Source: Apostichopus japonicus (lineage: Eukaryota; Echinodermata; Holothuroidea; Aspidochirotida; Stichopodidae). From it: a stretch of 64,000 nucleotides of DNA. Shown here piece after piece: positions 1-47,314 of the stretch. The stretch spans positions 12,237,501-12,301,500 of the forward strand of contig NC_092568.1 of NCBI RefSeq assembly GCF_037975245.1. Reading direction: 5' to 3'. Within the stretch, counting starts at the first letter, position 1. Every line of letters begins with the position of its first letter. The position numbers were made by a program, and so were the translations under genes. The notes below the pieces were generated by a model, which was not told the origin of the DNA, ran no database searches, and was given only the letters and a program-made list of their open reading frames with translations.

Positions 1-699
1 ATAGTCTGAAATAACTATACTGACAGTGCAAAAGCCAGGTGGATAGAAGGGAAATTATGGCATTTGAGATATATTTTGGAGAATAAGGAAGATTTAGCAA
101 AGAGAGTATGGAGAGTTCTGTGCTAAACTTTATCCTAGTTCAAATATATATGGCTACTGCCACAGTGTGCTATTGTGGGTAAATTTTGCGAATGCCATGC
201 TAGTCCAATCCATCAGCTATCATTTGGTGTGTTGGTCGTGTCAGTAATTGAAATACTTCTCTCAATACGCTCTAGCGCCCTCGGTAACTTTGCTCGGAAC
301 GGGTGCGCCAGGTTGAGGTGCCTCTTGGTTGCTAAATACATGTGCTGCAATTTAGTCCAAAGCACCCAACGAGCCGGTAGCAATTTATACCACAATCCCC
401 ACCTCACCCCGGCCTCCCCCTCCCTCTGATCAGGTCTACACACATTCTATATGCATGGGTTCCAATTTGCGTATATTAGGCTAACCCACACTGGATGAAA
501 TTCCGCGTGTTCTGTAAAATGCGTTTCTATGGTGTCATGGGTATACGTCTAGAAGTTTTCTTCAGTAGTGCGGTGTAAGACGCAGAGTTGCGCGTAAAGA
601 GTGCGATACGTATGTCTTCCGTGTACGTGGTTGGGCGTATCTCGTAGAGGCGCGACGTGCGGGTTGGATGCAAAGCTGTCTTCGGCATATAACCTTCAA

Positions 700-910
700 T
701 GATTTAGCATAGCGGCGAAGGACTTTGTAGACCTAGAAGCGTACTTCGTGGAGGGGACTGCGTGGTCACTGCGCGCGGCGTTTCAGTATATATTACGTCA
801 CAAGAAAATGACAAACAGAACGAAGATAAACATCACAAGGTATAATAATGTAATATTTTATATTGCAATTGCTTTTCGTTGAAGATAAGTCTATTGTGCG
901 ATTTCTCAAG
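700..910 (+). promoter_or_regulatory. Putative promoter and 5' UTR of copy A
   Basis: A TATA-like stretch (about 786-793) is followed by ACGTCA at 795-800, a half CRE/ATF-type site 116 bases before the ATG. The corresponding site in copy B lies 118 bases before its ATG and is a full palindrome. Similarity between the paralogs fades upstream of about 700. The start of transcription is not visible. Confidence 0.35.
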
Positions 911-3900
911 ATGTTCTTTACATTTTCACTGGCAAGCTACTATGCTTCCTCTTACATGGCTAGGAAGTTCACCAAATTTCTGGCATATGGACGAGGTAAG
1001 TTGGAACTATGTACAATGGGATACAAGGTATTCTAAAGTAAAGCCTCATTGAGTCATCTGGAATATTCGTATCGAGAAATGATTCTAACTTGATGGGACA
1101 GTAAGCCCGAATAAAGCGTAATATTTAAGCGCATAAAGTGTTTTATTACGTGATCAATCTCATGCCATAGTGTAAAGCTATACGATGGTAGAGAAGTTAG
1201 TCACGAATTCACTTCGTTACAACGAGGTGCATGGCTTCGGTGTAAACATTCATATTAAGCACACTCAATTGAGATAAAGGTAGCATTGGTAGAATTCTGA
1301 GAGGTTGTCTGCTGTAATTTTAGTTGTTGAATTCTTGTATGAATTACAATTTCATAGGTTTCAATGGTTTATTTTTGTCAAAGGTTTATTGAAAACTTAA
1401 ACCTTTCTTTCATAGAAAGAAAAGGTTTGATTGTGAAAAATTACACACCCCGTCCATAGTGTCGCGTAACAAGATTTATATCTGATCTCTTCATAAAATG
1501 TTTCTGATTCCATATACTTATATAAGGCAAGTCATTGCAAGAAACTGAATTCTTTCTTTATAGTAAGTCAGATAATTTTTCGTTTATCCTCAGCTCAATA
1601 CATCCTCCCAGAAGGATGTTACGGGTACCGTCCTCCGTTTCAAGGTAAGGTGTAGGTCAAAGTCAAATTACGTCATCCAATTATGGTAGAGCATTTATAT
1701 CACGTGATTAACAGCTCCATATAAAAGATGAATAAAATGTAATATCTTAGCAAGTGCCCTCAGTAAAAATGTTGCACTGGAAGGGGAAAGGAGAATGGGG
1801 AGTGGTGGTATAAGAGCGTACAGTACAGCTTAACTAGGTCAGGGCTTGGAGGGTAAGTAGAGGAACCGAGCTTTGAGAATCGGGTTATAGTTAAGCATTT
1901 TTCTCCACGTGTGATTCTTTTTATACTTTTTCCTACCCCGGTGAGTAATTAAGGGAAAGATACAACGACCGTACACTCATATAGCACTACCCTCCCCCAA
2001 CCCCTCCCCCACGTAATATATTGAAATTATTGATTTAAGATCTTTATTCTGTCTCTAAGTGAAGCTAGTGCATTTTAAACAGGCTTCTTGTTATCATTAA
2101 ACTGTATTATATCTACACAGATCTACAACGGAAACCCTTCAATCGGGAATTTCCCGTGACCGAAGAAAATATTTCTTCGCTCCTTTGCTTTCCATCAGGT
2201 ATTTCATTCATTCTTCAATTTTGTAACAGAACTGAACTGTATAATTACACTTTTCCAAAAAGTTCTATGACCACTGGCTGTTAATTGCTACTGCCCTCTA
2301 TTTTACAAGACCCGAGCCTATCCATAAAGAACCATTCGTCGTCCTTTGAGTGTCTCATTTTGCTTCATAATTATGTTCGTTTGGTTGTTTAATCAACGCT
2401 TTCCTTACTTGCTCTCTTGTATGTGCGTGCGTGCGTGCGGATTTGTGTGTGTTCGTTGTTGAATCATCAAAATGGCTATAACTTGTTAGATAATGTCTCT
2501 ATCATACATTCTTTGTTTTGTTGTAGAGCAAACTCTGCGCATGCGTGAAGATCTTTTTAACAGTAAGCTTATCAACTCTTCATTCGTTTTAATACTTCAT
2601 GAATATTCATACTATATTGTTCATTTTAAAAGGAAAGATGACTTACTTATATAAGTCAAACATTAATATAAACAATACTATTATTAATTACTTTCTTGCG
2701 AACTGTGGGGCACAACGAAGGATCTTGATCGCAGAATTGACACTTTTCAAAGGAGACTACTTCGAAATATTCTCAACATTAGATGGACCAATAATAATTG
2801 GTTATCAAATGATGAGCTCTACAACGAAACCAACCAAACACCTTGGTCATCGATAGTCGCACATAGAAGATTGAGATTTTTCGGTCATGTAGCAAGACTC
2901 CAAGAGGACGCTCCAGCAAAGGTTGCTTTAAGAGAAGCACTGAGACATACTGCTAAACCAGTTGGAAGGCCCGTGACTACATTGCTTGGAAAAATAAAAT
3001 CGCAATTCAAGGACATTAATATTAACAATTTCGAAGAAGCAATAAACCTTGCGCAAGATCGTGATACGTGGCGGAGGTTAATCACTGAGCATGTCGGATA
3101 GACGAGACTCAACTTACTACTACTACTACTAATTAAAGCTATCTTGATGGATACTGAATATCCAAACCCTATACGTTCGTTAAAAACCAAAAAAGACATT
3201 AAAGGCAAACTTAAGTATAAACCATGTTATACATTCCCTTTTCCTATACTTAGGCTATCTGATCTCACGCTTCAAGACCAGCTAAAACTCTTCCCTGACT
3301 TTGAGCTGGCAAACCTTGAAGGTGAGTTATAAACTTGAGATCTTGTATTGAAATAAATACACATATCATAATTATTTAACTAATGGAACACGATACAGAC
3401 GGTAAGACTATTTCAAAGACGTTATGATAGATTTAGTTTTCATGTCATCTATCTTATGTTTAGTTAATATTATTATTTCTTGGTCTCCAGAGTGCCTCCT
3501 TCGTGGAATTTCTTCAAGTATTCCTCTCGATCACAAGAACGGTAAGTTAAGCTTACATATATCAGTATTATCAAATTTCAGACAGACCAGACTATTCATT
3601 AAACATGCTAACCGTGTTCGACCAGTTAAACTGATTTTAATCTTTATACTTTCAGATCCTGCGAGAATCTATTTTATTCCAAATTCATGTGACTTTGGGA
3701 TCATTTCTTTACCTCGATGTGAGTTTGATTGTTTTAAAGCAAGATCTCATTGAATGTGTTATTTTTTTTTTACTAAATTTGCTAGAATTCTAATTAACTA
3801 CTGGGTCTTTGTATTATCCGCATACCCTCTCTATATACTCCCGAGCCCCTCATCCAACGCCCTTTCTAACCTTTCCTTACCTCCTCTCCACACATTTCAC

Positions 3901-6900
3901 TGACATGCTCTTCTCTTTCCGTCACTCCCTTTCCCCTCTACACTTCCCTTCCGACTGAATGTTGAAGCACTTTCACTGTGACTAAAATTACTTGCATGTA
4001 TTAAGTGTGAAGTGGTCTTAGTAGGTGCAACAATTAAACTCTTAATGTGATTTCACATAAACTTGCATTTAATAGAATTAACCCTATGACCCTGAAAAAC
4101 GAGTCTTATTTAGTGACATATCCAGAAGAACAAGTTCCTACTGATGTAAGAGGAGTAGCGGCCTTATCCCCCCTCCCTCACCCCTTACCCCATTACATAT
4201 TATTACCGGCAATGTTGTATCTTCATTAAGCTCTAAAATAAGCATCAACATATTTCTTGCATGTTTAAAGTTTTAATAGTCGAGCAGTACATGACCCCTG
4301 CTGCCTTCGAGAAGCATCAACAAGATGATACTACCTCTAGCTGGTCTGGTAAGATATATTTTGTTTCCTTTCAGTACTTCATCATTTTCGTGACTTTGTT
4401 ATATTATAAACGATATGTTTTTAGTGAGATGCATGGCACTTCAGTAAAATAATTTGGTTTATAGTTTATCGCCAATAAGTAAACAAAAAGGAAAGAAATC
4501 AAACTCTCGTTGTCAAAAAAGTGGTTATATCTTTATACTTAAAAGTTTAGCCAATTTTATTCACGCTGCAGATATTCAGGGCCAACACACTCAACAGACC
4601 ACAACAACGAGATATGAAGGTAAAGTAACACTCACTGTAGTCGTTAGGCTATAAAATATGGTTATACTATAATGAAGTATTTAGGTATATCTTCTTTTTC
4701 AAGACTGTATGTAAGGGGGGGGGCGGTCACTTGTGGAAGTCTCTGCAGTACCATATTAAATATTTATCAGTAAATAAAACATTTTGACGAGAAAAGTCAC
4801 ATTTTCGCTTTTCAGGTTACACCCTGACTTACTACCAGTACACCTTCAAAAGTTCAACTGGTGAGTATTGAGTGAAATTGGATTAAGTATTGTGCGCAAG
4901 AAAAGACAAGTTAATACTAAACTGATTTAAAAAAAAATATTAATATTAATCTTTCACTTCTTCAATAATTTCGACTCAAGGGATAATAAACCTGAGATTT
5001 ATGCATTGAAAGTCTTCTTGGCTGTTTAAAAATATAACATTATTTGAATCTCTTTCAGGCCCTGATCAGATGCAAAACACCGAGGAAACTCTAACAGGTG
5101 AGAAATATAGATTGTTTGTTAACACATCACAGAGTTTTGATTGATTTGAAAAAAAATAATTATTACTTCAAACTGCTGTTTCATATTTCTTTCAGATCCA
5201 ACAGGTAACAAGACAGCTACCAAATACATGTACTATTGGACTGGTAAGTGTTATCATATTGTATCACATGTTCTGACCGGGGTGTTTCTCTTTGGATGTT
5301 CATTTGGCGAGGGGGGGTGGGGGTACCTTATGCTCAATTTATACTGTATCATCTGGGGGTAAAGAATGGGATAAACAGTGGTGTGGGAAGGATTACTTAT
5401 TGGAGCTATTACGGCTCATTATTTACTTACAAGAAGTAAGCATATATCCTTAACGTCATCGACACTGTGACTTTTTCTGTGAGTTTATTGTTTCAGCGAC
5501 ACTAATGGATTCCTCTTTCCTTTCTCTGACAGATGGGGTGTCTTCATACCAACTGAAGGCGAATAAGATAACAACTCAAACCGAAGGTTTGTAATTTCAA
5601 ATATATAATAATAACAAGGAGCCATGAATATCAAATTACAATTTATCTTATATATCAAGTATTCTTATACATTAATAATACCTTTTATTGCCTATTAGTC
5701 TGTCATATTATGATGTTAAGTAATATATTCTGTGTTTATAGACGGACAAACTATCACCCATACACAGGACATTCAACAGTGTGATTACTCTGGTGAGTAA
5801 CCTACTGTCCATTATTTTATTATTATTATTATTTATTATTTTACCCAATTATTAATTTATTTATTATTTGAAACAATCATAAGACTAGCTTCTCATCAAA
5901 TAATAATGTGTTTAGCAAATTTCGTCATCTTTCCCCCAGTCCACCCACCCTACTCTTCATCACTGTTCAAAACATAATCGTGGAAGTTATAACGCACACT
6001 GCTTCAGTATAATATTGATACAGTTACATTTGTAAATATTAAATATTCCATAATTTGTAGTAAATTACTCTCCTCGTTCACAGTTTTTGGGATTGGCAAG
6101 GAAGAGCTAAGCCACATCACTGATAACACTGTAGTAGGTAAGTAGCTATATACCTCTGTCATTGATATACATGCATTTATATACGATCGCACAGCGATAG
6201 AAATAAATCCATACCTTTGATAATGTCGTGAATACTTATATAACCTTCCTCTTGTCAATTCATCATTGTTGGCTTTTATAATTTATGGAACGCCACCAAC
6301 CCAGTATAATTTACAAATTTATTATTTTGTTCCCTTCTTATTTTAGCTGGAAAGCAAACAACAATAAACAAACAATTCAGTTTGCAGACCAGTATTAGTG
6401 GTGAGTTGGATTTATTTATATAAAATATGAATGGAATGATTCTTAATCTAACACGATCTGCTCTTCATAAAGTTAAAAGACTTCAAAAGATAAATAATCA
6501 AGTTTCTCTGCGAAACTCGTATGTTAAACTTATTTTATCTTTCTTTGGTCTTTATGTTTTTATATTACCATAGTTTGGAATTAAATTACTGCGGACCGAA
6601 ATATGTGCACTATATGTATTTAACTTGATTTAATTCTTTTTATCCTCAGACGGGAAATCCTGTCAGAGTCAAACTCAGAGTGGCTCAGAGGAAACTGTGT
6701 CAGGTATATATGATTTAGTAAAGACCGTTTAACTTAATGTCTAAGCTATCTTTATGTTAACTTATATTGACGAAAGAAATAGTCTTATTTTGCTTCAAAA
6801 GTCAAGAAAAACAAGTAAACCTTTCACACTCTTGTTTCTATTGATTCATAATACTATGCACCTACTGTATCAGGTACGGTAAATAAAATAAAAAAATTGT

Positions 6901-9245
6901 AAAATCACTTAAAGTAACAAACATTTTGTATTAAAGATTGTGTCCCAAGGCTCACAGGTATCAAAATATAATAATTACTTCTAAACATTTGTACTTCCAG
7001 ATGATGACGTCACAACTACAGTATATCAGGATCAGCGAATCTCAACTGGTGAGTGATTTTTATCAGAAATAATATTGTTACAGTCATTTAGTGATATCTT
7101 ACAGTAAATATTCGTATCATATTTTGATTAATATCGAAAAATAATGTTACTCTGAGAATCGTGAATCTCTCAATTTTTATAAATATAGATCAATAAATTT
7201 ATGATACCTTCCCGCTTTTACCGATATATATCCCATCATGGTCAAGGGATATCACAGTAGGCTATATTATACGTTGTTGGTGTTGCTTTGTTCATTTGCT
7301 TTTTAGTAGTGCCCTTCTAATACCATATCCTTGTCTTATATATAGATGGAGTTTCATCCACTGTAGTGACGTCATCAAACCAATCGACCCGCACAGGTAA
7401 TTATGAATCGATTATGCAAATGTACGTCAACGGTACTCTTCTGTGAGAGTTTGTATATCTATTACTGTTAAAGGATTCATCTAAAAAGCGAATTTTTTTT
7501 TTTTTTAAATGCAATCCTGTAGTCATTCATTGTATATTTTCGGGGGGGGGGCAATACCTTTCTAGGGGAGGGGCAGGCAGCACCTTTGTAAAGGCCAAGT
7601 CATGACAATTTAGATATCGTATAAATTGTATAAATATCTCACATGTTTCCTTTGTTCTCCGTCATAGGCCGATTGAAGACAAATAAATTTATTTTGTATT
7701 TTCTTGTTCATAGATGATACTTATTACAGTCACAGTGTGTCGGAAACGATTACGAATGGTAAAAATTTACTCATCTCAATTGAATTATATATCGAGTATC
7801 GAGATATAAGAATTATATGAACATTTTATACAATCACACTTTAAAGTATTTTCTTACATTTATCGATGAGAAGTATACGCATGCGTCTTTATTTTCGCCG
7901 TTTGATTAATATTAATGGCGCAACTCGGGGCAAAAATTTGTCCTTTGCAATAATTATCAAATTGTTTATTTTTCTTACAGATGGAAGTTACGAATACCAG
8001 GCTGAGGAGATAGACCTACGACAATCAGGTTTGTATATTTATTTCAAAGATTGCATTTATTTAAAATAAGTACGTTATTTTGTAACAAAGGTTTAACCAA
8101 TGACTGGACATAACAAATAGGATTATTTTACACACGTTTACCATGGCTATGTCTTGAGCTACATCAGCAGACGTGCACATGATTTCAAAGAGGTGGGGGG
8201 GGGGGAGAGGATTAGTTGCTAAATTTGCCCAGACCTATTTAGGTAGGGGCATGACCGTAGAATAGCCAGAGGTGGATCAAGGGTTCTTAAAGGAAGGATG
8301 TGGCCACGTGGTCTTTGAAGCCGACTACCGTTTTGTGCTAATACATACTTTATAATTTCTGAGTGAGTCTGAAAAGCGGCCTGTTCACCCCATACTCCCT
8401 GGTTCTACACCTCAGGATGTCAGTGGGCCCAGAGGAGTGGTGTTATTCTTTTCCCGACCGAATATCTCCTTACTGAGGCTTCCTCCCACTGACTATGGAG
8501 AAAGGCGCCACCCCCTACCGGGCAAGCAACTGAGTTATATACTATTTTCTTTATCCTTAAAATATTTTATATTAAAATATAGCAATAACGACAGAACAAG
8601 GTTTCTACAACGTATAAAGATTCTAACTAGTCATATTGACCTTTGACCTTTCTGAGATTACATTTTCACATTGACGATCCTCTTATTTACCAACAGACGG
8701 TTTTTTCTTCATCAAACAAACCTACCCAGCAGGGAAAGGAGACGACGTGTTCAATAATGGTATGATAAATGTTTACATTATCAATATACATTATTAGATA
8801 ATTAAAATGAGTAAATATCAATTAAGTGACATTTTTATCACTGAATGGAATACATCACGCGTTTACCATACTGTGCGGTTTATGTAAGAGTGCATTATAT
8901 AGAACATGTATATATAGTGCAATGTTAGTAAATTTTCGCTAGGATTGAAATCTCAGGCCCTCCAACTTTTACACATTCTCTTACAAAGGCTCTTTAGTGG
9001 ATAACCATTTTCGATTTTGTTTTTTTTCTTTCGTCACTTTTCGTCAATTGCAAAGGCAGCTTTGTTATGAGGGACCCGTCCCTAATGCGGACCTAAAGTG
9101 TAAATACTTCTTTATTTTACATTCCTTACAATTATAAGTAATCGTATAGTTACACGAACTTCTTCAGCAAATTTTTTTTTTGAGGTGTCATTCTTCTTTT
9201 CTTCATTTTATAACAGATGATCGTCACCTTTACCTGCAGTGCTGA
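911..9245 (+). CDS. Copy A of a micro-exon-type gene, 23-24 short exons, unknown function
   Basis: The spliced gene has exons at 911-995, 1594-1644, 2121-2198, 2527-2562, 3254-3321, 3491-3541, 3656-3718, 4280-4348, 4572-4619, 4816-4860, 5059-5097, 5196-5243, 5533-5586, 5742-5792, 6084-6137, 6347-6400, 6650-6703, 6937-6957 (probable), 7001-7048, 7346-7396, 7714-7758, 7981-8028, 8697-8759 and 9217-9245 (stop TGA). Each has AG/GT borders, and each intron is phase 1. The ATG at 911 opens exon 1 (MFFTFSLASYYASS...) and is conserved in copy B. Its hydrophobic start could be a weak signal peptide. The rest is rich in Ser, Thr, Gln, Tyr and Asp, with few cysteines and no recognised domain. Exon 5 is 68 nt instead of 69, which shifts the frame to an early stop, so coding isoforms must skip it. 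Exon structure is well supported; function is unknown. Confidence 0.82.
2690..3132 (+). mobile_element. 5'-truncated LINE, C-terminal end of reverse transcriptase ORF
   Basis: A single open frame from about 2697 to 3101 reads ELWGTTKDLDRRIDTF, LLRNILNIRW, RLRFFGHVARL, VGRPVTTLLGKIK and LAQDRDTWRRL. These are the familiar motifs downstream of the polymerase domain in non-LTR retrotransposons. The element ends in a (TAC)n tail at about 3114-3130 and may be flanked by a short TAATTA target duplication. It sits in intron 4 of copy A and is absent from intron 4 of copy B. The clade (RTE, CR1 or jockey type) cannot be fixed from so short a piece. Confidence 0.8.
3254..3321 (+). pseudogene. Exon 5 of copy A, frameshifted
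   Basis: This 68-nt exon matches the 69-nt exon 49665-49733 of copy B but has one T fewer near its start (CTATCTGATC against CTATCTTGATC). If included, it leads to a stop within about 11 codons. Its splice borders are intact and both neighbours are phase 1, so skipping it restores the frame. It could act as a poison exon or simply be decaying. A sequencing error in this T run is also possible. Confidence 0.75.
6937..6957 (+). CDS. Probable 21-nt micro-exon of copy A
   Basis: This 21-nt segment sits between AG and GTATCA, keeps the 1-1 phase and encodes D-CVPRLT before the next Gly/Asp junction. In copy B (53406-53426) it differs at two positions, both synonymous (CCA/CCG and CTC/CTA). The acceptor has a poor pyrimidine tract, as is common for micro-exons. 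RNA evidence would be needed to be sure. Confidence 0.5.
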
Positions 9246-9800
9246 TGACTTTTACCCCCGGGGTAGGGGTGGGGTGAGACTCGGGTACGTAAAAGGTCGG
9301 GTGGTGTTGAGTAACGGTATAAAGTCTCATATCCACTGGTTGGATGTCGAATAAGCTTGTTCTGTGTCCATCCATACTACATCAGATCACTGGCCGGATG
9401 TGATATCTTGGTAACCATGACGTCATCAACTTCCTATCACTCATATTGATATATTCAGCTATGCTTTTTTTCTCGATGTGCTTGTTTCGTTGTAATCGTC
9501 AAATATATCGTTTGTATCCGTAACTCGTTCGTTTCGTTTCTTTCTATTACGTTGTGTGTTTTATGACAAGGGTGGAATCTAGGCATATAAAACACACATA
9601 TGTACAATCACAAGAAATCTTCCCTGTGTGAATACGACAACATTCTCTCATAACATTCACTGAATGACTAAACTTTATTTTGTGTTCAAGTCTTAAAAGG
9701 AATCACACAAGCTGTTCTGTTACTTCAATTTCATGTTGTTATTTAACATCACAAAAAGAGAATGAAATTTTGAGGATTTCCCTGGACATTTGCGTTACCA
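9246..9800 (+). other. 3' UTR or 3' flank of copy A
   Basis: This segment is conserved with 55950-56510 but has no long open frame. A clear AATAAA occurs only further on, near 9958, in the repeated block. Where the transcript ends cannot be decided. Confidence 0.4.
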
Positions 9801-9809
9801 AGTAGATGA

Positions 9810-10400
9810 TGACTGCATGGCACCTCTCTACCCATACACCCCCCCCCCTCCATCTCCTTCTGGCCCGATCCCTCCTCCCCGCTCCATCTCAAAAATATTA
9901 AACAGAAATTAATTTAACAAAATGTTAAAGGCAAAATTCAACAACATATTAAAGACGAAATAAAAAACCACAGCTCATTACCGCACATTACAGCATTGGT
10001 TCTTTTCTGTTTATTTACACGTTAGATAAGTAAGGGATAAGGAAAATAACGGGCGGAGACTCGTAGGTAAATTATCGCAATGGATAATAAACATATCACA
10101 TTTCGAGTCACAGCCTTATACTGTTATTACTTCTATTACAAGTTTACGCTAGCGAAGTGCAGACTGGTATACACAGTGTATTGTCGTTCTCTGCGTCCAT
10201 TAGTTCGAGAGCCCAATTAACATTGACAATTCACTTATACATATTTAATAGTCTTTATTATTATACTAAAAAAGCTGATAACCTTTCCAGTCCAGTTTCA
10301 AAAAGGATACCTTGCATTTTATAAATCTAAATTGCTTATAGTAGTTTATACGTAAGAAACACGTCATTGTGGTCACTCCGTAGCGTTATCCTCCAGTTAC
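9810..10400 (+). repeat. 3' flank block, copy 1 of 4
   Basis: The block begins with GATGATGACTGCATGGCACC and continues through a pyrimidine-rich stretch, an AAATAAA-containing part and the sequence around GTTCGAGAGCCCAAT. Further copies lie at about 56510-56886 (partial), 56887-57440 and 59694-60330. No protein is encoded. Confidence 0.8.
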
Positions 10401-10429
10401 TCGTATGGCGGGCCATCAGTCTCAAATCA

Positions 10430-10925
10430 TGGGGAATCGACTTATACCGATCTACATCGACAGATACCAATTTCCTTCGACTTATACAAGTTTCCAGCAG
10501 CTTAAATTGACTTATACCGATTTAAATCGACATATACCAGTTTAATTCGACATATCATCGATTTAAATCGACATATACCAAATTAAATCGACATATACAA
10601 ATTTAAATCGACATATAACAATTTAAATCGATGATATGTCAAATTAAATCGGTATATGTCATTTTTAATCGACAAACACCAATTTAATTCGACTTATACC
10701 AGATATAAATTGATATAAACCGTTTTAAATCGACATATACCAATTTAAATCGATGATGTGTAAAATAAATCGGTATATGTCAGTTAAAAAAAAAACATCT
10801 ACCAGTTTAAATTGATGATATGTCGAATTAAATCGGTAGAAGTCAATTTCATTGGACTTATACCAGTTTCTAGCAACTCAAAGTGACATATACCTACTTA
10901 AATCGACATATCATCTATTGAGCTC
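10430..10925. repeat. Palindromic AATCGACATATACC array, left copy
   Basis: Short units containing CGACATATACC alternate with the reverse complement form CGGTATATGTC and with ATCGATGATATG, so the array is full of inverted repeats able to form hairpins. It is conserved at 57490-57915 in the right duplication copy. Confidence 0.8.
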
Positions 10926-12960
10926 ATCCTAGCTAACCGAAAAACAAGGTGGGGGTGAAAATCCCCAAGGGATTCGCTTTTTCTTTTCTTTTTCTTTTTT
11001 GGCGGGGGGGGGCTGTCGCTGCGTTGCCCTATTTCGTGCTTCTGCATCAGTCCTCGCTTTGCTACCGCCTTTTTTTTACTCTCTTGTTCTCATATTATTT
11101 TCTTGATGACAAGTTATATTTGCGCCAAACTGTATGAAGTAAACGTGACGCATTTGCGAGTTACTCAATGGTAATACCAGTTCCTAATACAGGACGGTAA
11201 CATGGTTACTCAATTTACCTAGCTACGTTTACCTTTTATGCTAAAACTTGATATTTGTCATGTCACGCCTATTTCAAAGACACAACATCTTTTGTTTTTT
11301 CTCCTCAATATGGGTGATATACTTATAGTATATATCTTACAGTTCTCATGATTTAATTCAGCTGTGTCAACTGATAGGCTACTGATTTGCTACATTCCAC
11401 TACAAGAGAATATACAAACACAAATAAATGGGAACAAACTTAAAAGAAAGTAAATTTGAATCAATGGTAAATAACATGAAAAGAATTGCGCATAAAGCCA
11501 CTCATCGATAGTGTAGACAGAATTATATCATCTCACTCATACGCAAAATGGGAGCAGGGACATCCAGCAGGCAAGCAGGGAGAATCCCCTGCTAGGGAGA
11601 ATCCCCTAATAGTGAAGAGGGAAACTTCACCTGACCTCTGCCAATCGTAGTTCATGTGATTGGAAGATTAGAAACAGGTGTGCCAAGGTTGTATCATTCC
11701 CTTTTATAATGTCTAATGTCGTTAGTTTTAAATCCATAAAAAAGGATATAACAGCAAATAGCTCTGCTATGATTGTATAAAGTGTATTTTTTCAGAGGGA
11801 ATTTCTTATAAGAATGCTTTCCTTTTAGCTTTCCTACCATTTCATGGCGGTGAGTTCTTGGGATCAACGTAATCTCTAATCTTCCAACATGACTTGAAAC
11901 GGAATACAAAGAATGTTTCTATAGTTCACATGTTCTCATTGGTTCTTCCTTCCTTTTGACACTTACAATACTTTCTAACATGATGTTCCTTTTTGAAAGA
12001 TTAAATATGTTGCATGAATAAATTTGGGACAGGTGATGAATTTAAAGTTAGTGAGGGGGGGGGGGCCTCCGTTGGCCCATAGTCTAATTAAATATGATCA
12101 TGGTCCCACCCAATTTGCATGTTTTTGATGATAAGATATATTTGCCTCAATCACTATGAATTGAGCTTGACACATTTGCTTGTTACTCAATGGCAATATC
12201 AGATCCTAATACAAGACGATACCATGGTAATGTACTAAGGTTACCCAATTTAACTATAGCTTCGTTTATACCTTTCATGCTTTACCTGATTTTTGTCATG
12301 TCACGCCTATTTCAATGATACAACATATATTGTTAAACAGAGTTCTGGATGAAAGACAAATAATAAATTCTTATTAATTTCTTATTTAATTCTTATTAAA
12401 TCATAAATTCTTATTTATAGAGTTCTGGATGAATTATGTCAATTATTTCAAACCAACACTCTATGAGAGATGACGTAAATACCTCTTTTCAAATCAATAG
12501 AAGGAGGAAACTTAATTGTATTCCGCTTGTTTATTTCTTTGTTAAACAGATCTGATCTGAGATACAATTTTTCAGGGTTCAGTAACTTATCGGCAAATGA
12601 AATGAGAAGGAGGGGCGGCGGTGAGGGGGAGAGTAGCTACGACCTTGAAAAGGTTGGTATTGCCTCCTATAACATATGCTTTATGGAGATTTTAGCTGCT
12701 GATAGAGTCGACCATGTCAGAGTGTTGACTTGTATTGCACATATAGAAGCTGTAATAATATCCAAACCCCGTGCTCGTCACCGTCCCTTCCTCATTACCA
12801 TTCAGTCTTTCAAAATGCAACAATTGTAAACAACGTTGGCTGATAATAGATCAAAATTTGATACTTATAAAGATGATTCTAATATTTTGTATTAAACTAT
12901 AAATACACACTGGGGGGGGGGGGGGCTTTACACGCAACTACCGCAGTTTCAGTGGATCAA
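10926..12960. other. Non-coding 3' flank shared by the duplication
   Basis: This holds poly-G runs (near 11006, 12054 and 12911) and AT-rich unique sequence matching about 57930-59690. Two partly duplicated pieces (about 11100-11300 and 12110-12330) resemble each other around the sequence GTCATGTCACGCCTATTTCA. Short ORFs here are not conserved in length between copies. Confidence 0.6.
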
Positions 12961-14128: not shown

Positions 14129-15950
14129 AATTATTTTATATTAAAAAACACCCTGTTTCAAACTAGCGCCATCGAATTCCTTAAAGCCGTTTTTTGGCCC
14201 TTGTCACTCTAAAGGTGGAATGGATTTTATTGTAATGGGTTATTTTGGTAGGTCAAGCAACACATTAAAACAGTTATGCGGTTTACAAGGGTTTACAGGA
14301 ACTTAACAAGGCTCATTGTTTGACATAAATGTGTTGGTAAAGATTTACACAACTTACACCAAAACAAGCATTATATTCGTTGCAATACTAGAGAAATTCA
14401 AGCCGGCAAGACCCTGAGATAAAATTTTAATATATTAATATATAGGTATATTAGTTTCAATATGGTCCCATTATAAGCAACAGTGTTGTAGCAAATACTC
14501 ATACCGGATAGTAGGTAGTTTCGGAAACTGAGTGATTCTTAAGAACTTTGTTTGAGATTCACAAAAAAAATACCCCGTATTGTGTTTTGATAACTTCAGC
14601 AACAAAATTAACATCGATATACCGGGGACCGTTAAAAACCACTGCTCTCGGTCTAGCTAGGGTTGTATAGCACATTTACTTATTTTTTGTTTGTTATTTT
14701 GAATGATCCATTAAACAGTTGTGGTTCACTAGTTAAAGTGACTGGACCGTTAAGTTAATTACACAGCCCATAAGACTAGTTCCTCGGTTGCACTACAAAA
14801 CTCAATAGGAGAAATTAAGATTATATGGTCTCAAATGACATGTTTATAATTTACTACAAATTTGTTAAGGACAAATGATGTCGAATGCCATCCAAGGGTG
14901 CTCTGTTGCTCATATTAACGAACATATTCTGGTTGACCTCAAACCCAACGGATTAACATTAACTATAAATATGCAATGAGGAGCCGACGTCACCGTCAAG
15001 TTAGCCTAAACGAATATTCCAGAAATTAAGTATATTTAACAATACATATTTTGAAAATTACTGGAATAGCTACAGAAACATTATTGGACTCAATCTTGTC
15101 TGTTTTCTATGTATTATAACAAATCAAGACTAAAATTCAGCCTTATTCATTATTTAATTATTTAAGTGAGTTATCAAGTTACAGCAAAATCTACCTGTCG
15201 ATCATTCTCCGATGATTGATTACCGGTGATAGTTTTTAAGAAAAGTCACCCAGGAAAGAACCTGGGCACGAAAACCAAACTACCGAACGTCTGGTCAGCT
15301 CTCAACCACAGTCCCTTTGCATCGAGACTGTGACTGTGTATAACCATTCCCATCGAAAGGGAACAGATACTACACATGATCTTCGGGGATGTCTTCAACT
15401 TTTTGGTCTATCTGTTCATTGTACACGTCTCAGGATAAAACTAGTTTGATCTCGGAAGAATGTTACCCGATCGATTCCTTGTTCTTTATTCTATTTGTTT
15501 TACAAATCAATGGACTACAGTCTGATAAACAATGAACAGATGAAGAAAACTGCCATTAATGGAATACCAAGTAGTCCCCGTTATGTCCAACACGTAACAC
15601 ACTAATGGACTTTATCGATACTCATTGACGAACCACATCTTCCTTATTCAAAACAAGTGTATAACAATAGAGAGAGATTAATGCCATTCAAGTGGTGCAG
15701 TTTGCTTTCATATTACTGTAACGTTGACCAGTGTCCCCGAATTCCAGCTGCTTGAACTAATAAAAATCTTCAACACATATCAAGACAAAAAATCGGAGAA
15801 GAGGTTGATGACTGGTTGATCGCTTATTTATTGATTTATTACGTTGATCTTTGATTCACTGGCACATGAATTTACCACAGATTACGGCATTGACAGACTT
15901 TACAGATAAGCAGTTAATAGAAATGGTACAGGATAACAGGAACTGTCTGT
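14129..15950. other. Non-coding DNA
   Basis: AT-rich sequence without a supportable exon. A weak tRNA-like stretch on the - strand near 15250-15350 may be an old SINE head. Confidence 0.4.
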
Positions 15951-15961
15951 ACACTTAAGCA

Positions 15962-16144
15962 GTAACACAGTTACGCACTTAGGAAGTTACGCAGTTAGGT
16001 AGTTACACAGTTACGCAACTACGCACTTACGCATTTACGCACTTACGCAGTTACGCACTTAAGCAGTTACGCAGTTGCGCACTTACGCAGTTACGCACTT
16101 ACGCAGTTACGCACTTACGCAGTTACGCACTTACGCAGTTACAC
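15962..16144. repeat. 8/16-bp minisatellite
   Basis: The 8-mers AGTTACGC and ACTTACGC alternate to give a 16-bp period. The centre is nearly perfect and the left edge decays. Confidence 0.95.
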
Positions 16145-19100
16145 TAACTCGTGGAGGCATACAAGATATTTTATTGGGACGTACTCAACAACAGGCTTAA
16201 AGACTTAACCAGTTTATATTACTTAATAAAATATCTCTTTTCGAGATCACAACCGAACCAGTACGTGGGTAAATGTATTTGCAGATGAAGGATAATACTA
16301 GCGTTTGTTAAGCCTCCTAGTGAAGTCGAAATTACAATTATCGAACCCCTATAGAAAGTGACAACAAATATGTCTTAAAAATACACCCTCGTTTCTTGTT
16401 ACCTAAATGCACTTAGCACCACGATAATTTTCTTAGAATTCCCTAGGTGTACGAAAAATAACCCCGTCTCACCCCAGAGATACCCGATTTGATCTTTCCT
16501 AAGACAAACAATTAAACCTAGAAGTCATGCCAAGCACATACATAATCGTGTGATAGAACAAAAATATACCAGTGAAGTGGTAGCAACTTACAGAAAATAG
16601 GCTTTCCCTCGGTTCTCTCTCTGTCAGAGGCCAATCTCGGAATACCTCGTGAGCGTGGTGAGCTCAAACTAATAAAACAATCTGCGCTACCACTAACATG
16701 GGAAACGTCTCAAAATTCGGGTGCTGATTCAGCAAAGTTTACAAACAAAACAGGGGTACGATTTTCATTGGCTGTCCCCACCTGCAACTCGCAAAAGCTC
16801 TACACATATTTTGGGAGAGATGCCATCGACGGGTAGAACCGAGGGAACGCTCAATCCTAAAACGAATATTACAATAACAAATTACTTAAAGGGATACATT
16901 TCCGTTACATTACTGAAACCTGTACGACAAGATGTTTACGCTATGTGAGCAGTCCGGAAGCGTTTTAGCGTTTTATCCGGCTTCCGGTAAGATGTATCAA
17001 GTATTCAATTGATGACTATATAACGAAGAAAAGACATTAAGCACATGGACATTAATATCCTCCTACTGAGGTACGTATGTGAGGCTCATTTGCATCCATT
17101 GTTATCATTTGCTGTAAAATAAACTTTGCTAGCATTTTTTTTCGCAATCTGGGAAATCAAACTCGACCGCTTCGAGGAAGCTTAAGGTCCATGAAAAGCA
17201 CCGTGTAATGGTATCCCCTTGGTAGGACCAGGGACAATTATATAAGGAAACCCCTTTCATGGGTTACAAATGAGAAAAATAGAATACTATAAATTAAATT
17301 CATTGACAATTCGTTACTTAGTGGATAAATCCACTTATGTTTATGTATGACGTTTATTTGGTAAAGTAACGCAAACCCGGTCATGATGTGGTTCCAAGCG
17401 GTACCATTATCTGGCAACAGCACTTAAATGCAATGGCGTGCTCAAGGAGAGTCGGCGGAAATTCCCCTTGCTTCACAAGATCCTTCATTCGCATTGTTTC
17501 CATAACATTTCAGCCTCCTATACCTAATTCGCCACTGCTACGGGCATCTGTCAATACTTGTATAAAATACAATTCCTTATGTATAATATATGTGTACGTA
17601 CCCTTCTTAGAAGAGTCTTAGTTAAGGTAGCATAAGCACACCCAACCATTATCAGGTGTATATGTGATAAAGATGTACGACATACCGCCAAAAGGTAAGA
17701 ACATGTTTATTCCACCCTGCAGGGAAATAGCAACTTAAAAGTTCTTTGATAGACAAAAGTGGTAGCTTGAACAAATCAAAATATTACAGACCGATTCTCA
17801 ATTGCATTGATTTTTATATTTTTATATTATTTATTGCAGTACCTATTTTCCGTTATAAAGTTAGGGCTCCCAAAATAATGGTGGATCGAACATGTTGAAT
17901 GCATCCATGTTGAGCATGTACTTTATATGTTATGCTTTCATTGTTTTCGGTGTCAAGTGTGTAAATTCAGCTTGAAAATGGAGGGAAAAAAGGAAAATGA
18001 AAACAGAAAACAGAAAAAAAGAAGAATAGCTAAAGGAATAGCCACGTTTGCATCTCCTGGCAACACTTTTTTCATCACTACCTGCAAAATGACACACTCA
18101 TGACACAAATTTCAATGCTGATATCGCCCAAATATTTCGATTTATTCCTTGAAATGGTGACGTTTTAAAAGTTCAACAGACTATTTTAATTTCAAAATAT
18201 CAACTTTCTTGAAAACTCGGGATAATGATATAATTAGTGGTACTCAGTTAAGTAGGAGAGTATATGAGGGTATAACGAAAGGTTTAAATAAACTGTTAAA
18301 TGATTTCGGTGTTTTCATCAAACTTTCGACCTTTTATAGAGAGTTTTAAGAAAATGCCACAATTTCCACGGACTTTGGTAGGCCTATGACAAAACACAAA
18401 ATGATAATTTGACGGTTAGCTAGCTGTTAATTTCCTCATAGAAATGTAACCGAGAAATGCTTTGACGTCGGTATACCAATTTGCTATGTGGTCATACTTG
18501 TTACGTTGACTCGAATTTTCAATGATAACAGCAGTCATGGGTTATTATTACACACGTTTAGACTTGGACGAACAGAAAGTGACGGATAAATCCACACCTC
18601 AGCTCCTAATTCTCCGTCGGTCCTGTAGAAGGTGAATAACCGGCCCAGCGATTACAGTAGGCTATATATAGAATTGAACAAACTGGTGCAAAAAGTGTGC
18701 TGCAAAGTCATTCCTGTTGAACGCTTGAGCTTTTGTGATGAATGTTATGTTTTCATGTAACGTTGAACCTTCGTGGTACACGATCCACACGCATATGGTT
18801 GTCTGAGTAATTCTTACGTCACATTTTGGTCCATTCTCCTCTTTTAGTTTCGACCTCTAACGACTGTGTTTAGTACATTGGCTCCATACAAATCGCCAAT
18901 ACACACGCTTTGTCTTTATTATTAATAACTTGCAGTGAGTCTATATATAAACTTTACACACACATGCCTCAGCGATGATATATGTGATATATTTTATCCC
19001 CGACGATTGAGCAAACAGCACGTAGGCAGTGTCTGTCTGTAACGTCACCACCCACCTCATGTCTATAAACTTAATAAAAAATTAATTAATAACCTCCGAG

Positions 19101-19790: not shown

Positions 19791-19934
19791 AGCAATGAAA
19801 TTTTGTCATTTATAAACCTGGATATGAAAACTGATTTTCTGATGATAACATTTTGTATATTTAGCAATGAAATTTTGTCATTTATAAACCAGGATATGAA
19901 AACTGATTTTCTGATTATAAAATTTTGTTTATTT
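19791..19934 (+). repeat. 72-bp tandem duplication
   Basis: Two adjacent 72-bp units (19791-19862 and 19863-19934) begin with AGCAATGAAATTTTGTCATT. The length is a multiple of three, so a short open frame (19725-19967) runs through both, but nothing else supports a gene. Confidence 0.85.
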
Positions 19935-19967: not shown

Positions 19968-21563
19968 TGTGGTAAAATTTATATCAGATTGTTTAATCAC
20001 ACGGGGTAATGTGAAAACTGCAATTTTTTGCGTTGAATTCTAAACACCCCGAGAGAAACACATTGAAGGGGACTGAAAAATAGGGTGGGTGGGTATTTGA
20101 TAACAATTTAATGCGTGACGTCACTCAGTGAAACGTCAGGCAGATTGAAACGAGCCGTTAATATTAATAAAGCTGTACCCATTCAAACAGTAAAAAAACC
20201 CATTAAATTCGTTATACACAAATGATTTGTGTGCGTGTGCTGGAACCGACACATCAATAATGGGACTTGTGTTTGAACACAAACCTAGAAGGGGGGGGGG
20301 GGGATTTATTATTTAGGGGACATCTAGGTGTCCTGTGATTGAGGTGTGTATACAAACAGTGTGTTTTGTGATATCTGAAACACAAAACACACTAAAATTA
20401 GTGACCAACATGATAGAATAGCGCCCTCATAAAAGTTGCAGTTTCGGGTGTAAATTCAGATTACTGGTAATTGTACGGTTTTTTAGGGTTGACGAAGGGT
20501 TTGGTAGCTGTGGCGTGCCTACGCCGTGGCCCCCAAACTACAAAAATGGTCAGGTGAAGGTTTTGTTTTATTTGATCATTATTTTAGTATCTTTCACATG
20601 CATGAAACTTTGTTCATTGTGTATCCCGGCTGCACTGCAATCACTGCACTGTCCAATACAGGCTATGCTAGATATTGGCGATTGAAGCCCCGATTAAGTT
20701 AACGAGACTCTACCGATACCCACCAGTCTAGCTAAGCGTATTTTAGTGTAATGTTCTGCACTAGATTATGCCAGCAAAAGCAACATTTCATCTCACCATG
20801 AAGCCAAATGCGCTCCCACCATTCTTGGTGCTGACTTTTCCTCTGACACCAAGAAGGAGCTCGCCAAAACCACTAAAGACGTCAGTGCCGTGTCATATCC
20901 AGCATGAACCATATTGCACTTTCCTCATACCCACATTATTCAACCCATTTTAGAAACAAATTGGTGGGGCACCACTGAACTTTGTTAAGCATTTGAGACA
21001 ATAGAACATGGGGTGATTTAAGCACTCCTGTATAATTAAATGTATCCTTAGACTAAGGTACATGGAGCTTGAATTTTACATAACTACATGAGCATATGAC
21101 GAAACAATATTGGTATATGATTATATTGAAGCGGAAAGCTACGACTTTTCCTTAGTGAGATACGTTTCGTTCCCTCAGGGGTTACATCTGTTGCGCTCCG
21201 CGGAGGTAACGAGAGATGTTTATCCGGAACAGGAACTGATTACGTAATTTTGCTATATCGATGTATTGCCGTGACTGGCATAAGCAGGCACGGCGATGGG
21301 TGCGTGAGTCGATCCCATTGGTCGCAACTCACCGTAGTTATATACAGATAGTCCCCGATTGGTCTAAGCCTTTTTTACAGTTTATGTACGGACGTGTGTA
21401 TACGGGGGTTATTTCCGGGGTATTTAATGAAGGGTTCTTTCGTAAATGAGGGAGTCGGAGAGTCGGTCGAGTGCAAGACGAGGAACTTTCCTTCCGGCGG
21501 CTCTTGGTAAAGCCTTTGATATTTGCCCAAGTCCAAATAAGTGTGTTTAAGCATTTTAAAGTG
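19968..21563. other. Non-coding DNA with a hairpin
   Basis: A 12-bp inverted repeat GTGTGTTTTGTG ... CACAAAACACAC with a 10-base loop lies near 20359-20393. A 12-base poly-G lies near 20290. A short stretch at about 20755-20910 reads like a decayed coding piece (LGADFSSDTKKELAK...), but I cannot assign it. Confidence 0.35.
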
Positions 21564-21846
21564 CCCGACCCCTGCGCTGCTCGGGTCCAGCGGATTGCCC
21601 GACCCCTGCGCTGCCCGACTCCAGCGGATTGCCCGACCCCTGCGCTGCTCGAGTCCAGCGGATTGCCCGACACCTACGCTGCCCGAGTCTAGCGGAATGC
21701 CCGACGCCTAGGCTGCCTGACACCGGTGGATTGCCTGAAGCCTGTGTTGCCCGACACCGGTGGATTGCCTACGTCTAGACTGCCCGACCCTTGCGCAGCC
21801 CCAGTGTTATGCCTGTGTATCATTGGGTTGTGCCCGACCCCAGTTC
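21564..21846. repeat. 34-bp GC-rich minisatellite
   Basis: About eight units start with CCCGACCCCTGCGCTGC and end near CCAGCGGATTG. The first three are nearly identical and later ones diverge. It stands out as GC-rich within AT-rich surroundings. Confidence 0.92.
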
Positions 21847-29396: not shown

Positions 29397-30245
29397 TTAA
29401 AGGATTTTCTTTATTACGGAAAGCTGGTTTATGTTGGCAATCTTCCGTGCAAAATCTACTGCACTCAGCACTATGAGGGCGATTTCAGCGATCAGAGCAA
29501 CTCCATCTGTTGCGATAGCTGCAAAAATCATAACAGTAACTTTCACAGTAGTCTCCAGCCAATCATTAAACGCCATGTCGCTATGCAGAAATTTGATGAT
29601 GGTCCACAGAATCTTAGTTGAGTAGATTTCCATGATAAGATAGAAGAGTGCTTTAGCTTTACCGTATGCACTATCTGCTGAATCCCAAGCTGTAACAAAA
29701 GCTTTTAGAGCCTTCTGTAGTTTTAAGTCGGTTTTGATCTCTTGTGCTGTTTCTTTGATCACCTGCTGCATCTTACTTACCCTTGGAGATGCCGAGTTCC
29801 CGACGACAGACATGATAAGAAGAATGGCCTCAACCAAGATGCTGGCGTTCTGCATGTCACTTTCCAAATCCACATCATCAGCTGTTGAAATTGCTTGCGA
29901 GGGTAGAAACTGTTTTCCATCCCTGGTGAATTCCGACCAGTAATTCCCGTCTTCTCTCTTTACAATTTCCAGTCGGAAAGTGGGAATCTCAAGTCCTCCT
30001 CGAATTAGCTGAATTCTTTCGTGGGAGAGGTGCTTGCTGAGTCGTGCAGCGATGTCTTCAGGCTGGTTGCGCAACTCATCGGTAAGCTTCAGGGTTTCGG
30101 TAGCCGTTGCCCTCGCGGCTTCTGTAATCTTCTCTTTCCATGCTGGTTCTGCATTCAGTTTCTTGTATTCCTCGGGAGCATACTTCCCCATGTCTTCCAA
30201 AACCGCCTTTAACGCCTTTTGAACGAAATCACTATGCAATGCCAT
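29397..30245 (-). CDS. Intact 282-aa protein, unknown function, coding region in one exon
   Basis: The reading frame extends 20 codons further upstream, but I place the start at the inner ATG (MALHSDFVQKALK...). A strong splice acceptor, a pyrimidine-rich tract ending TTTTCCAG, lies four bases before it, and the context AAAATGG is favourable. The gene therefore probably has a 5' UTR intron. The protein looks largely alpha-helical: a charged N-terminal half (residues 1-110), a short region with GGLEIPTFRLEIV and GNYWSEFTRDGKQFLP that could be beta, then two hydrophobic stretches (about 135-150, ILVEAILLIMSVVG, and about 235-265, VMIFAAIATDGVALIAEIAL). Peripheral or conditional membrane association is possible. 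AATAAA overlaps the TAA stop. Family unknown to me. Confidence 0.85.
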   Translation of the reverse strand: MALHSDFVQKALKAVLEDMGKYAPEEYKKLNAEPAWKEKITEAARATATETLKLTDELRNQPEDIAARLSKHLSHERIQLIRGGLEIPTFRLEIVKREDGNYWSEFTRDGKQFLPSQAISTADDVDLESDMQNASILVEAILLIMSVVGNSASPRVSKMQQVIKETAQEIKTDLKLQKALKAFVTAWDSADSAYGKAKALFYLIMEIYSTKILWTIIKFLHSDMAFNDWLETTVKVTVMIFAAIATDGVALIAEIALIVLSAVDFARKIANINQLSVIKKIL

Positions 30246-37563: not shown

Positions 37564-37993
37564 TATACCTATATCATTGCATGAATAGGCTTAGCCTAAT
37601 GAACTTATATTTCTCCAAAAAACCTGTTAGAGGTTGACACACCAGTAACCCCACCTCCCTACCCTAAAGCATTATTCTCAATAATGTTTACATGATCAAT
37701 ACACATAACCTAGCCTGGGTACGTTTTACACTAGGTTAGTGTAGGCCACTACAATAGATGCATCACATGCAACAGCTATATACCTATATCATTGCATGAA
37801 TAGGCTTAGCCTAATGAACTTATATTTCTCCAAAAAACCTGTTAGAGGTTGACACACCAGTAACCCCACCTCCCTACCCTAAAGCATTATTCTCAATAAT
37901 GTTTACATGATCAATACACATAACCTAGCCTGGGTACGTTTTACACTAGGTTAGTGTAGGCCACTACAATAGATGCATCACATGCAACAGCTA
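37564..37993 (+). repeat. 215-bp tandem duplication
   Basis: Two adjacent 215-bp units (37564-37778 and 37779-37993) appear identical by eye, starting TATACCTATATCATTGCATG. The identity implies a very recent event or an assembly duplicate. No ORF is involved. Confidence 0.95.
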
Positions 37994-43275: not shown

Positions 43276-43578
43276 TCTTCACTGAAGACTGAAGAGACGA
43301 TTGCCGATGTACGAAACTTAGCGATAGCAGACACTAATGCCAGGAAGAAGAAAAACTATGGCGTCATTGGTGGAAGCTTAGCAGGAATAGTAGGTGGTGC
43401 AATGTCACTCGCTGGGGCAATCTTGCTTCCTTTCACATTTGGAACAATCATCACACTAAAGGCTTCTGGAGAAGTAGTAGGACTGACGGAAGCTCTTGTG
43501 AACATCGGGTTTTTCGGTCGAGAAGGCTATTGGGATGAAAAAATGGTTATTCGTCAATTGCCTAAAATTGACGAATAA
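43276..43578 (+). CDS. Apolipoprotein L-like terminal exon (partial gene)
   Basis: An AG acceptor at 43274-43275 opens a frame of about 100 codons to TAA. The peptide runs from SLKTEETIADVRNLAIADTN into the glycine-rich hydrophobic hairpin NYGVIGGSLAGIVGGAMS and LAGAILLPFTFGTIITLKAS. That pattern is typical of the membrane-inserting region of the apolipoprotein L family, normally preceded by a helical segment. The frame ends in IRQLPKIDE, and AATAAA overlaps the stop. Known family members bind lipid and insert into membranes; the role here is inferred only. Other exons were not found, so it may be a terminal exon or an isolated remnant. Confidence 0.6.
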   Translation, partial: SSLKTEETIADVRNLAIADTNARKKKNYGVIGGSLAGIVGGAMSLAGAILLPFTFGTIITLKASGEVVGLTEALVNIGFFGREGYWDEKMVIRQLPKIDE

Positions 43579-44517: not shown

Positions 44518-45212
44518 TAATTAAACATCAAACAATATAAACTTAGCCTAGACTACATATCAAAGAAGTAAAGAAATCCCTCAAATGAGAGCAGGGAGCA
44601 ATTCGTCTCTTCTATGTTCGTACTTAATGAGCAGACAATGTGGGGTTCTTGACGTATCGGATGAACAATAAGCTCATCCTAACGCTGCTATTATTGATTC
44701 ATTCAAGACATGACGGATTTTAGATTGGAAAAGAAATACTCCCGTTATGAAGGTCTGAAGCTGAAGTGATTTTTTTTTTATCACAAATTAGTTTCCTCCG
44801 ATTATATCATATATTGTTATGATACGTATACAAAAGCCATTCTTTATTGAGTCTGTGTACGATTGGACGCTTGAAGCTCGACATCTGGCGCAAAACTGAA
44901 CGACAGAATATCCAGTTTCTCAAATCAAAAGTCCTAAAAGTAAACAATATAGATCGCTCCTATACATTTTACCAATATCATGTGTTTAGTGTCTGTTCCC
45001 TTTCGAAAAGACTAGTATAGTATATCATAGATATAGATATATCAAACATTTACAGTATTAGTACATGTGGGTAGGTACGCAGGTATCTCATATCTCTATA
45101 TTGACCCAAATTCAGACATTTTATGATTTATTAAGACGACCAAGTGTTACAAGACGCACTGAACTTTGATAAGATGTGTAAAGAAGAGTGAGTCTCATGA
45201 ATCTGTAACATA
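44518..45212. other. Non-coding DNA
   Basis: No gene or repeat recognised. Confidence 0.4.
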
Positions 45213-45372
45213 TTTAAAATTTGGTAGTTCATCTCTGCTTCTCAACGACTGCCGTGGAGTCTAATATCCTTCAACTGAAAAAAAAAACAGATTTCAAATT
45301 TGGCAGTTCATCTCCGCTTTCTCAACGACTACCGTGGGGTCTAATGTCCTTAAACTGAAAAAAAAGAAAAAC
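45213..45372. repeat. 79-bp tandem pair of a dispersed repeat
   Basis: Two units contain AGTTCATCTC and CTCAACGAC..CCGTGG, offset by 79 bases. Related pieces occur at about 62675-62765 and 63715-63815. Confidence 0.7.
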
Positions 45373-45910
45373 AGAAAGAATATTTTTTATACTATTAATT
45401 GTTTTGTTCCCAATAAGGGACCTAAAATAAGACAAGAACTTCATCGGGGATGTAAGTTAATTACAAGCCTACAGATATAACTGAATTATGTGATTCCCTC
45501 TTTTCAAAGAATCTTTGATGGATTTTGATGGAAGTTGCAGCTATTTTCATGATTTCTAATGCATATGAGAGTGGTTAGGGCAATGCTGTTCATAGGTGTC
45601 CGTAGAAGTATTTTATAAAGAGATCGATTGTTAACAGCAATGTATCAATCTACCCAATCATATACAGAGCAATGTTTGAAATTATAAATATAAATGACGA
45701 AGCCAAGATTTCTTTTGAGCTCTTTCACTCAAAGATCGATAATTATATTTTACTCTCTGATGATTCTACATACCAAAGCACTTTAACTCCATGTAATAAC
45801 CATAACATTGAGCTAGCCTAAGCTTTCAAAAACGGATTGGCGATTGAGAACGTTCAACAGAAGTATTTCATTCTTGTGGATGCTACAATGCAGGCCATCT
45901 ATAATTTCAA
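45373..45910. other. Non-coding DNA
   Basis: No gene or repeat recognised. Confidence 0.4.
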
Positions 45911-45914
45911 CTTC

Positions 45915-46315
45915 TCATCTCAAATTGTTGACATTTTATCTCCAAATTCCGATCTTCGTTTCATCATAAAACTCTTACGCTTTTGTCGAAAAGTCCATGT
46001 TTTATATCTCGACGGTTTGACATTTTTCTCGGAAGTTCTTTTATACCAAATTTCGACATACCGGTATACCTCGTACTTTTCAGGTTATATTTCAAAAATG
46101 TGATGATCATAAAATTCCGACGTTTATGTTGAAATTTCAATGTTTATCTAAGTATGACGGTTTCAATGAGAATTTCTACACTAAACCTCTAAAATGAGTT
46201 TACACCATTACATTATGACGTTTCATGTCAAAAGTTTGACGATGTATGTCAAATTTTTGACATTTTGTTTCGAAATTTGTATTTTATCCCGTAAATTCGG
46301 ACATACTATTGTATG
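45915..46315. repeat. Degenerate TTTGAC/TTTCGAC array
   Basis: Motifs such as TTTGACATTTT, AAATTTCGACAT and CGACGTTTATG recur every 20-30 bases in a decayed form. No perfect unit remains. Confidence 0.5.
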
Positions 46316-47139: not shown

Positions 47140-47314
47140 GTAACTCGTTGAAACGCACAGTGAGTGATCATTGCGCGCGAGCGTTACTGTACATGTGACG
47201 TCACACAGAAATGACATGGACAACGACGATAAACATTATAAGGTATATATGTAATGTAATGTTATATTGCAATTGCTCTTCGTTGAAGATAAGTCTATTG
47301 TGCGATTTCTCAAG
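47140..47314 (+). promoter_or_regulatory. Putative promoter and 5' UTR of copy B
   Basis: The palindrome TGACGTCA, a CRE/ATF consensus, lies at 47196-47203 and corresponds to the half-site at 795-800. Downstream the two copies share a 5' leader containing TTGAAGATAAGTCTATTG just before the ATG. The TATA-like motif of copy A is not conserved here. Confidence 0.35.

Follow-up and report, generated by a model that had tools for sequence, protein, structure and literature searches.

Whether a gene cut almost entirely into small exons of a single phase varies its protein by splicing, or is always spliced in the same way, is the question raised by a locus at positions 911-9245 of a 64,000-nucleotide (nt) stretch of contig NC_092568.1 (positions 12,237,501 to 12,301,500, forward strand; hereafter the window, to whose first letter all positions refer). 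A preliminary description had read this locus, here called copy A, as a micro-exon-type gene with an intact paralogue, here called copy B, and had suggested a protein diversified by splicing. Comparison of the two copies confirms, at the level of sequence and conservation, a real protein-coding gene, present twice, and protein diversification by splicing appears possible from its exon structure. The overall reading proposed here, of a two-copy gene with a foldable head, a flexible tail tuned by variable exon inclusion and one recently broken copy, is judged about evenly balanced between right and wrong.

Both copies were rebuilt from a reading of 1-11000 and 45000-56999. The intact gene lies at 47315-55949 (+), where 23 exons run from ATG to TGA and encode 410 amino acids (aa). 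All 22 introns between the coding exons have GT-AG ends and lie in phase 1, their lengths ranging from 97 to 950 nt, and GC content is 0.45 in exons vs 0.33 in introns. The joined frame is open over 410 codons and ends at TGA, giving the product length stated in the preliminary description; the alternative frames of the same joined sequence contain 12 and 28 stops. Other structural claims of that description were reproduced in this copy, in which all 21 internal exons are multiples of three, measure 36-78 nt (mean 53, median 51) and contribute 12-26 residues each, between introns that are uniformly of phase 1. Internal exons hold 1119 of the 1233 coding bases and, since each is of phase 1 at both ends, any one of them could be skipped with the frame kept. 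As none of the 21 is 27 nt or shorter and 12 are 51 nt or shorter, the label micro-exon is valid under the wider definitions only.

On the forward strand, the start codon opens exon 1 (47315-47399, 85 nt), which is followed by exons 2 (48350-48400, 51 nt), 3 (48941-49018, 78 nt), 4 (49356-49391, 36 nt), 5 (49665-49733, 69 nt), 6 (49899-49949, 51 nt), 7 (50064-50126, 63 nt) and 8 (50684-50752, 69 nt), the last exon of a head of foldable composition. An acidic tail rich in Thr, Gln, Ser and Asp begins with exon 9 (50978-51025, 48 nt) and continues through exons 10 (51215-51259, 45 nt), 11 (51460-51498, 39 nt), 12 (51596-51643, 48 nt), 13 (51941-51994, 54 nt), 14 (52159-52209, 51 nt), 15 (52506-52559, 54 nt), 16 (52760-52813, 54 nt), 17 (53132-53185, 54 nt), 18 (53475-53522, 48 nt), 19 (53811-53861, 51 nt), 20 (54167-54211, 45 nt), 21 (54575-54622, 48 nt) and 22 (55368-55430, 63 nt), closing with the final 29 coding nt, TGA included, in exon 23 (55921-55949).

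The exons of copy A were located by local alignment to those of copy B, and all 23 are kept, with 22 of 22 GT-AG pairs, at exactly the span first described (911-9245, +). They lie at 911-995, 1594-1644, 2121-2198, 2527-2562, 3254-3321, 3491-3541, 3656-3718 and 4280-4348 (exons 1-8), at 4572-4619, 4816-4860, 5059-5097, 5196-5243, 5533-5586, 5742-5792, 6084-6137 and 6347-6400 (exons 9-16), and at 6650-6703, 7001-7048, 7346-7396, 7714-7758, 7981-8028, 8697-8759 and 9217-9245 (exons 17-23). Of its 21 internal exons, 20 are multiples of three; the exception is exon 5 (3254-3321, +), which at 68 nt is one base shorter than the 69 nt of copy B and is therefore frameshifted, with a stop inside the exon. 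Exon 23 ends in TGA in both copies, and when exon 5 is left out copy A has an open frame of 387 aa.

The starts of the copies lie 46.4 kb apart within a longer duplicated block, and the divergence between the copies shows the exon structure to be more than chance. Exons differ at 43 of 1232 positions (3.5%) and introns at 620 of 6466 (9.6%; Fisher p 2e-14), while a single indel event falls in exons vs 184 in introns, although the intron rate predicts about 35 exonic events (p 8e-13). Between the copies, nonsynonymous divergence (dN) is 0.025 and synonymous divergence (dS) 0.077, a dN/dS of 0.32, with dN below dS (p 2e-4 from rounded counts). Exons and introns contrast most sharply at the 5' end, where exons 1-4 differ at 9/250 positions vs 258/1592 in introns 1-4; the figures are 14/590 vs 108/2475 for exons 5-15 and the introns there, and 20/392 vs 254/2399 for exons 16-23. 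Because exons 1-4 have stayed so similar although their introns have diverged, copy A was probably broken recently and would at best yield a protein lacking exon 5. Introns in the middle of the gene have diverged little, which suggests gene conversion there, and a candidate tract is formed by 3142-6614 and 49539-53024, which share 93% identity; by comparison, identity between 1444-2696 and the matching part of the other copy is about 79%. Intron bases next to exons are conserved at 93% vs 90% in mid-intron, a slight excess that fits ordinary splice signals. A tblastn search of the window for a third copy, run with the 410-aa query to E 10, recovered below E 0.4 only exons of copies A and B; of six weaker rows (E 0.4-8.0), two are antisense to exon 3 in each copy and the other four lie away from any exon. 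Intron 4 is 691 nt long in copy A vs 273 nt in copy B, and in copy A it contains a 137-aa open reading frame (ORF; 2688-3098, +) without a Pfam match at cut-off. This ORF resembles, we presume, the C-terminal part of a non-LTR (long terminal repeat) retrotransposon protein.

The product divides into two parts of different composition. A charge-hydropathy plot, whose dividing line discriminates only coarsely, places exons 1-8 on the folded side, with a net charge of -4, and exons 9-23 on the disordered side, with a net charge of -20. Thr, Gln, Ser and Asp abound in residues 144-410, and Pro makes up 1.5% of these last 267 residues; such a composition makes the tail encoded by exons 9-23 probably flexible. 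No match to the 410-aa product was found in Pfam at curated cut-offs (the best weak ones being RMI1_C at E 0.077 and Myosin_N at E 1.3), in NCBIfam at E 1 or among PDB sequences up to E 10, so that the earlier remark that the modules carry no recognised domain was borne out for these three libraries. A search of viral contigs gave no confirmed relative, two stretches fitting a pattern and neither being confirmed. By eye, a short hydrophobic run is present at the N-terminus, MFFTFSLASYYASSYMARKF, and it is weak on the Kyte-Doolittle scale; no clear signal peptide was seen by either approach, and no 19-residue window of the product exceeds 0.7. The gene is most likely an orphan whose product joins a foldable head to a flexible, acidic tail of high Thr, Gln, Ser and Asp content. 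A long row of short in-frame exons encoding a flexible, charged segment tuned by splicing is familiar from the PEVK region of titin; in contrast, the tail here is rich in Thr, Gln, Ser and Asp with little Pro, is built from 15 exons and belongs to a product without any Pfam domain.

Under the reading favoured here, the pre-mRNA would be spliced across its 22 phase-1 introns to give the 410-aa protein, exons 1-8 supplying a head of ordinary foldable composition and exons 9-23 the acidic tail. Splicing would be able to leave out any internal exon with the frame intact, and we consider it likeliest that at least some tail exons would be variably included, thereby tuning the length or the binding surface of the tail. 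What argues for variable inclusion is this frame compatibility together with several weak, non-consensus donors kept in both copies, such as GTTTGT after exons 13 and 21, GTATTT after exon 3 and GTAATT after exon 19. A more far-reaching form of the idea applies if the source lies outside both the flatworms and the relatives of aphids: an independent micro-exon family whose 21 interchangeable phase-1 cassettes are combined variously, chiefly in the acidic tail, into many protein forms per gene. We regard this form as unlikely.

Several results weigh against variable inclusion. The 22 introns were scanned for further cassette exons of 12-120 nt in phase 1, alignable in both copies and with all splice sites scoring at least 2 in both, and none of 53 candidates passed; phase-0 and phase-2 controls gave 0/60 and 0/70. 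The nearest miss, a 36-nt candidate at 52446-52481, has a lowest donor score of 1.6 (copy B), and its total of 5.3 is barely above the best control totals of 3.9 and 4.9. Constraint is the same in the tail as in the head (dN 0.026 and 0.024, respectively; dS 0.077 in both) and thus does not point to the tail as a region of diversity. No strand or helix periodicity above shuffles was found in head or tail. That copy A is readable without exon 5 lends skipping weak support, because 21 of the 23 exons are skippable by design and a frameshift anywhere in the gene would almost always hit a skippable exon. The candidate most promising to the eye, a 21-nt segment in intron 17 (53406-53426 in copy B, 6937-6957 in copy A), is in phase 1 and reads DCVPRLT in both copies with synonymous differences only; its acceptor scores -1.7 vs a minimum of 2.5 among those of the accepted exons, and it is probably not an exon.

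The principal competing explanation is an ordinary intron-rich gene, constitutively spliced, in which the uniform phase is a relic of growth, either by phase-1 exons duplicating in tandem and diverging afterwards or by repeated insertion of exons into phase-1 introns, and no isoform diversity exists. The even constraint along the gene and the failure of the scan to find extra exons both favour it, and so do features of the exons themselves. The modules of exons 9-22 resemble one another more than shuffles do (z 4.2, reached by 0/300), as do all internal exon modules to a lesser degree (z 2.3, reached by 4/300), and exons tend to start in an Asp-Gly-like manner: Asp occupies 13 of 20 GNN junction codons vs 20 of 85 GNN codons elsewhere (p 8e-4), and Gly follows the junction codon in 7 of 22 cases vs 14 of 366 elsewhere (p 5e-5). 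Part of this bias arises because the splice consensus, with G at the exon end, yields GNN codons, but the consensus alone is insufficient to account for the preference for Asp and Gly. Growth by duplication is countered by the same data, however: fixing the first two residues removes the excess similarity among the modules of exons 9-22 (z 0.3, reached in 118/300 shuffles), and the best exon-to-exon DNA match, with a score of 14, is attained in 2/20 shuffles. The similarity is thus limited to the first two residues, the modules were rejected as a detectable protein repeat, and an old duplication of exons, although possible, finds no support beyond the junction. On balance, constitutive splicing is a tenable alternative that we think falls somewhat short of probable.

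A secreted variable protein equivalent in function to the micro-exon genes (MEGs) of schistosomes, a parallel drawn in the preliminary description by architecture only, was measured against published descriptions of such genes (PMC7653826, PMC10526429 and PMC5825161). The rule given for the tapeworm Hymenolepis calls for at least 7 exons, half of them shorter than 70 nt and divisible by three, and a run of four such exons (PMC7653826); here there are 23 exons, 20 of which are of this kind (all but exon 3, at 78 nt, and the two terminal exons), with a longest run of 19 (exons 4-22). MEG exons of Schistosoma mansoni are described as 3-81 bp long, with long introns of up to 5 kb (PMC10526429), and all 21 internal exons lie in that range, as do all copy B introns but one of 97 nt in the stated span of 100 to almost 5000 bp. 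The likeness fails, however, against the account in which some 80% of schistosome MEG coding sequence is in symmetric exons of 6-36 bp (PMC5825161), since a single one of the 21 internal exons is no longer than 36 nt; with no clear signal peptide and differences between the copies that are purifying rather than diversifying, a functional equivalent of the schistosome genes is improbable. We consider marginally less probable again that the 23 exons belong to a longer gene extended by exons on its 5' or 3' side, or that the ATG of exon 1 is internal. In its favour, the copies share only 152-154 nt upstream of the ATG (47161-47314 on the forward strand of copy B, common to 759-910 of copy A), a flank that is likely to be promoter or 5' untranslated region; against it, an in-frame TAA lies 20 codons (copy A) or 21 codons (copy B) upstream with no ATG between, the ATG context is good (AAGATG) and TGA closes exon 23 in each copy. 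That both copies are dead, or that the gene model strings together small segments that are open by chance, might be argued from the frameshift in copy A and from the lack of relatives in the libraries searched. The exon-specific conservation between copies rules out the chance string and, together with the dN/dS and the scarcity of exonic indels, makes this explanation as a whole highly improbable.

Among known small-exon genes, the flatworm MEGs of Schistosoma, Echinococcus and Hymenolepis share with this gene consecutive short exons divisible by three that permit skipping in frame (PMC7653826; PMC10526429; PMC5825161), as well as tandem gene copies. They differ in exon size, most MEG exons being 15 bp (PMC10526429) whereas those here are 36-78 nt, and in product length, which is 410 aa here against no more than 189 residues for the S. 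mansoni proteins aligned in PMC10526429. All introns here are of phase 1, no fast evolution of the tail is seen between the two copies and the signal peptide common among MEGs is not apparent by the approaches used. Bicycle genes of aphids, phylloxerans and scale insects likewise combine many unusually small internal exons of one phase with novel, highly divergent proteins, but their internal exons are almost all of phase 2, often with signal sequences and, in many members, CYC motifs (PMC9168663); here 22 of 22 introns are of phase 1, and the product has neither CYC nor C-x-C and no clear signal sequence. The gene is filed here as an orphan of structural micro-exon type, related by these descriptions to neither group. 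The literature searched yielded no paper on micro-exon genes in echinoderms, nothing related on microexons in sea cucumbers and none pointing to this gene.

Other features of the window were also recorded. Between the copies, an intronless open frame of 282 aa (29400-30245, -) had no NCBIfam match at E 1, and the surrounding 303-aa stop-to-stop stretch reached no Pfam cut-off (closest, Senescence at E 0.0046); an AlphaFold single-sequence model of the frame was mostly helical and of low confidence (mean predicted local distance difference test score 42.6). Upstream of copy B, a 100-aa open segment (43276-43575, +) gave a sub-threshold match to apolipoprotein L (PF05461, E 8.8e-4, 19.2 bits vs a cut-off of 25.9). 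A segment found once after copy A (about 9805-10165) occurs three times after copy B (56509-57253, 59696-60089). A survey of positions 1-40000 returned tandem or clustered repeats at 10443-10911 (unit about 20 nt), 15936-16174 (8 nt), 19791-19934 (72 nt), 21562-21765 (34 nt) and 37564-37993 (215 nt, two exact copies). Rfam gave no match at gathering scores, and no tRNA was found.

Few genes are built of many tiny exons in a single phase, and the published cases found come from flatworms and from relatives of aphids, many of them secreted. A clean 23-exon orphan with phase 1 throughout, if it belongs to another kind of animal, lets one ask whether this architecture recurs and whether small one-phase exons always serve splicing diversity. 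With copies 46 kb apart, one of them frameshifted in a skippable exon, the locus also offers a natural test of rescue by exon skipping. If RNA showed one isoform only, the gene would be a clear counter-example to the notion that small symmetric exons mean splicing diversity; if the combinatorial reading were true, it would represent a further, separate invention of a variable protein built by splicing.

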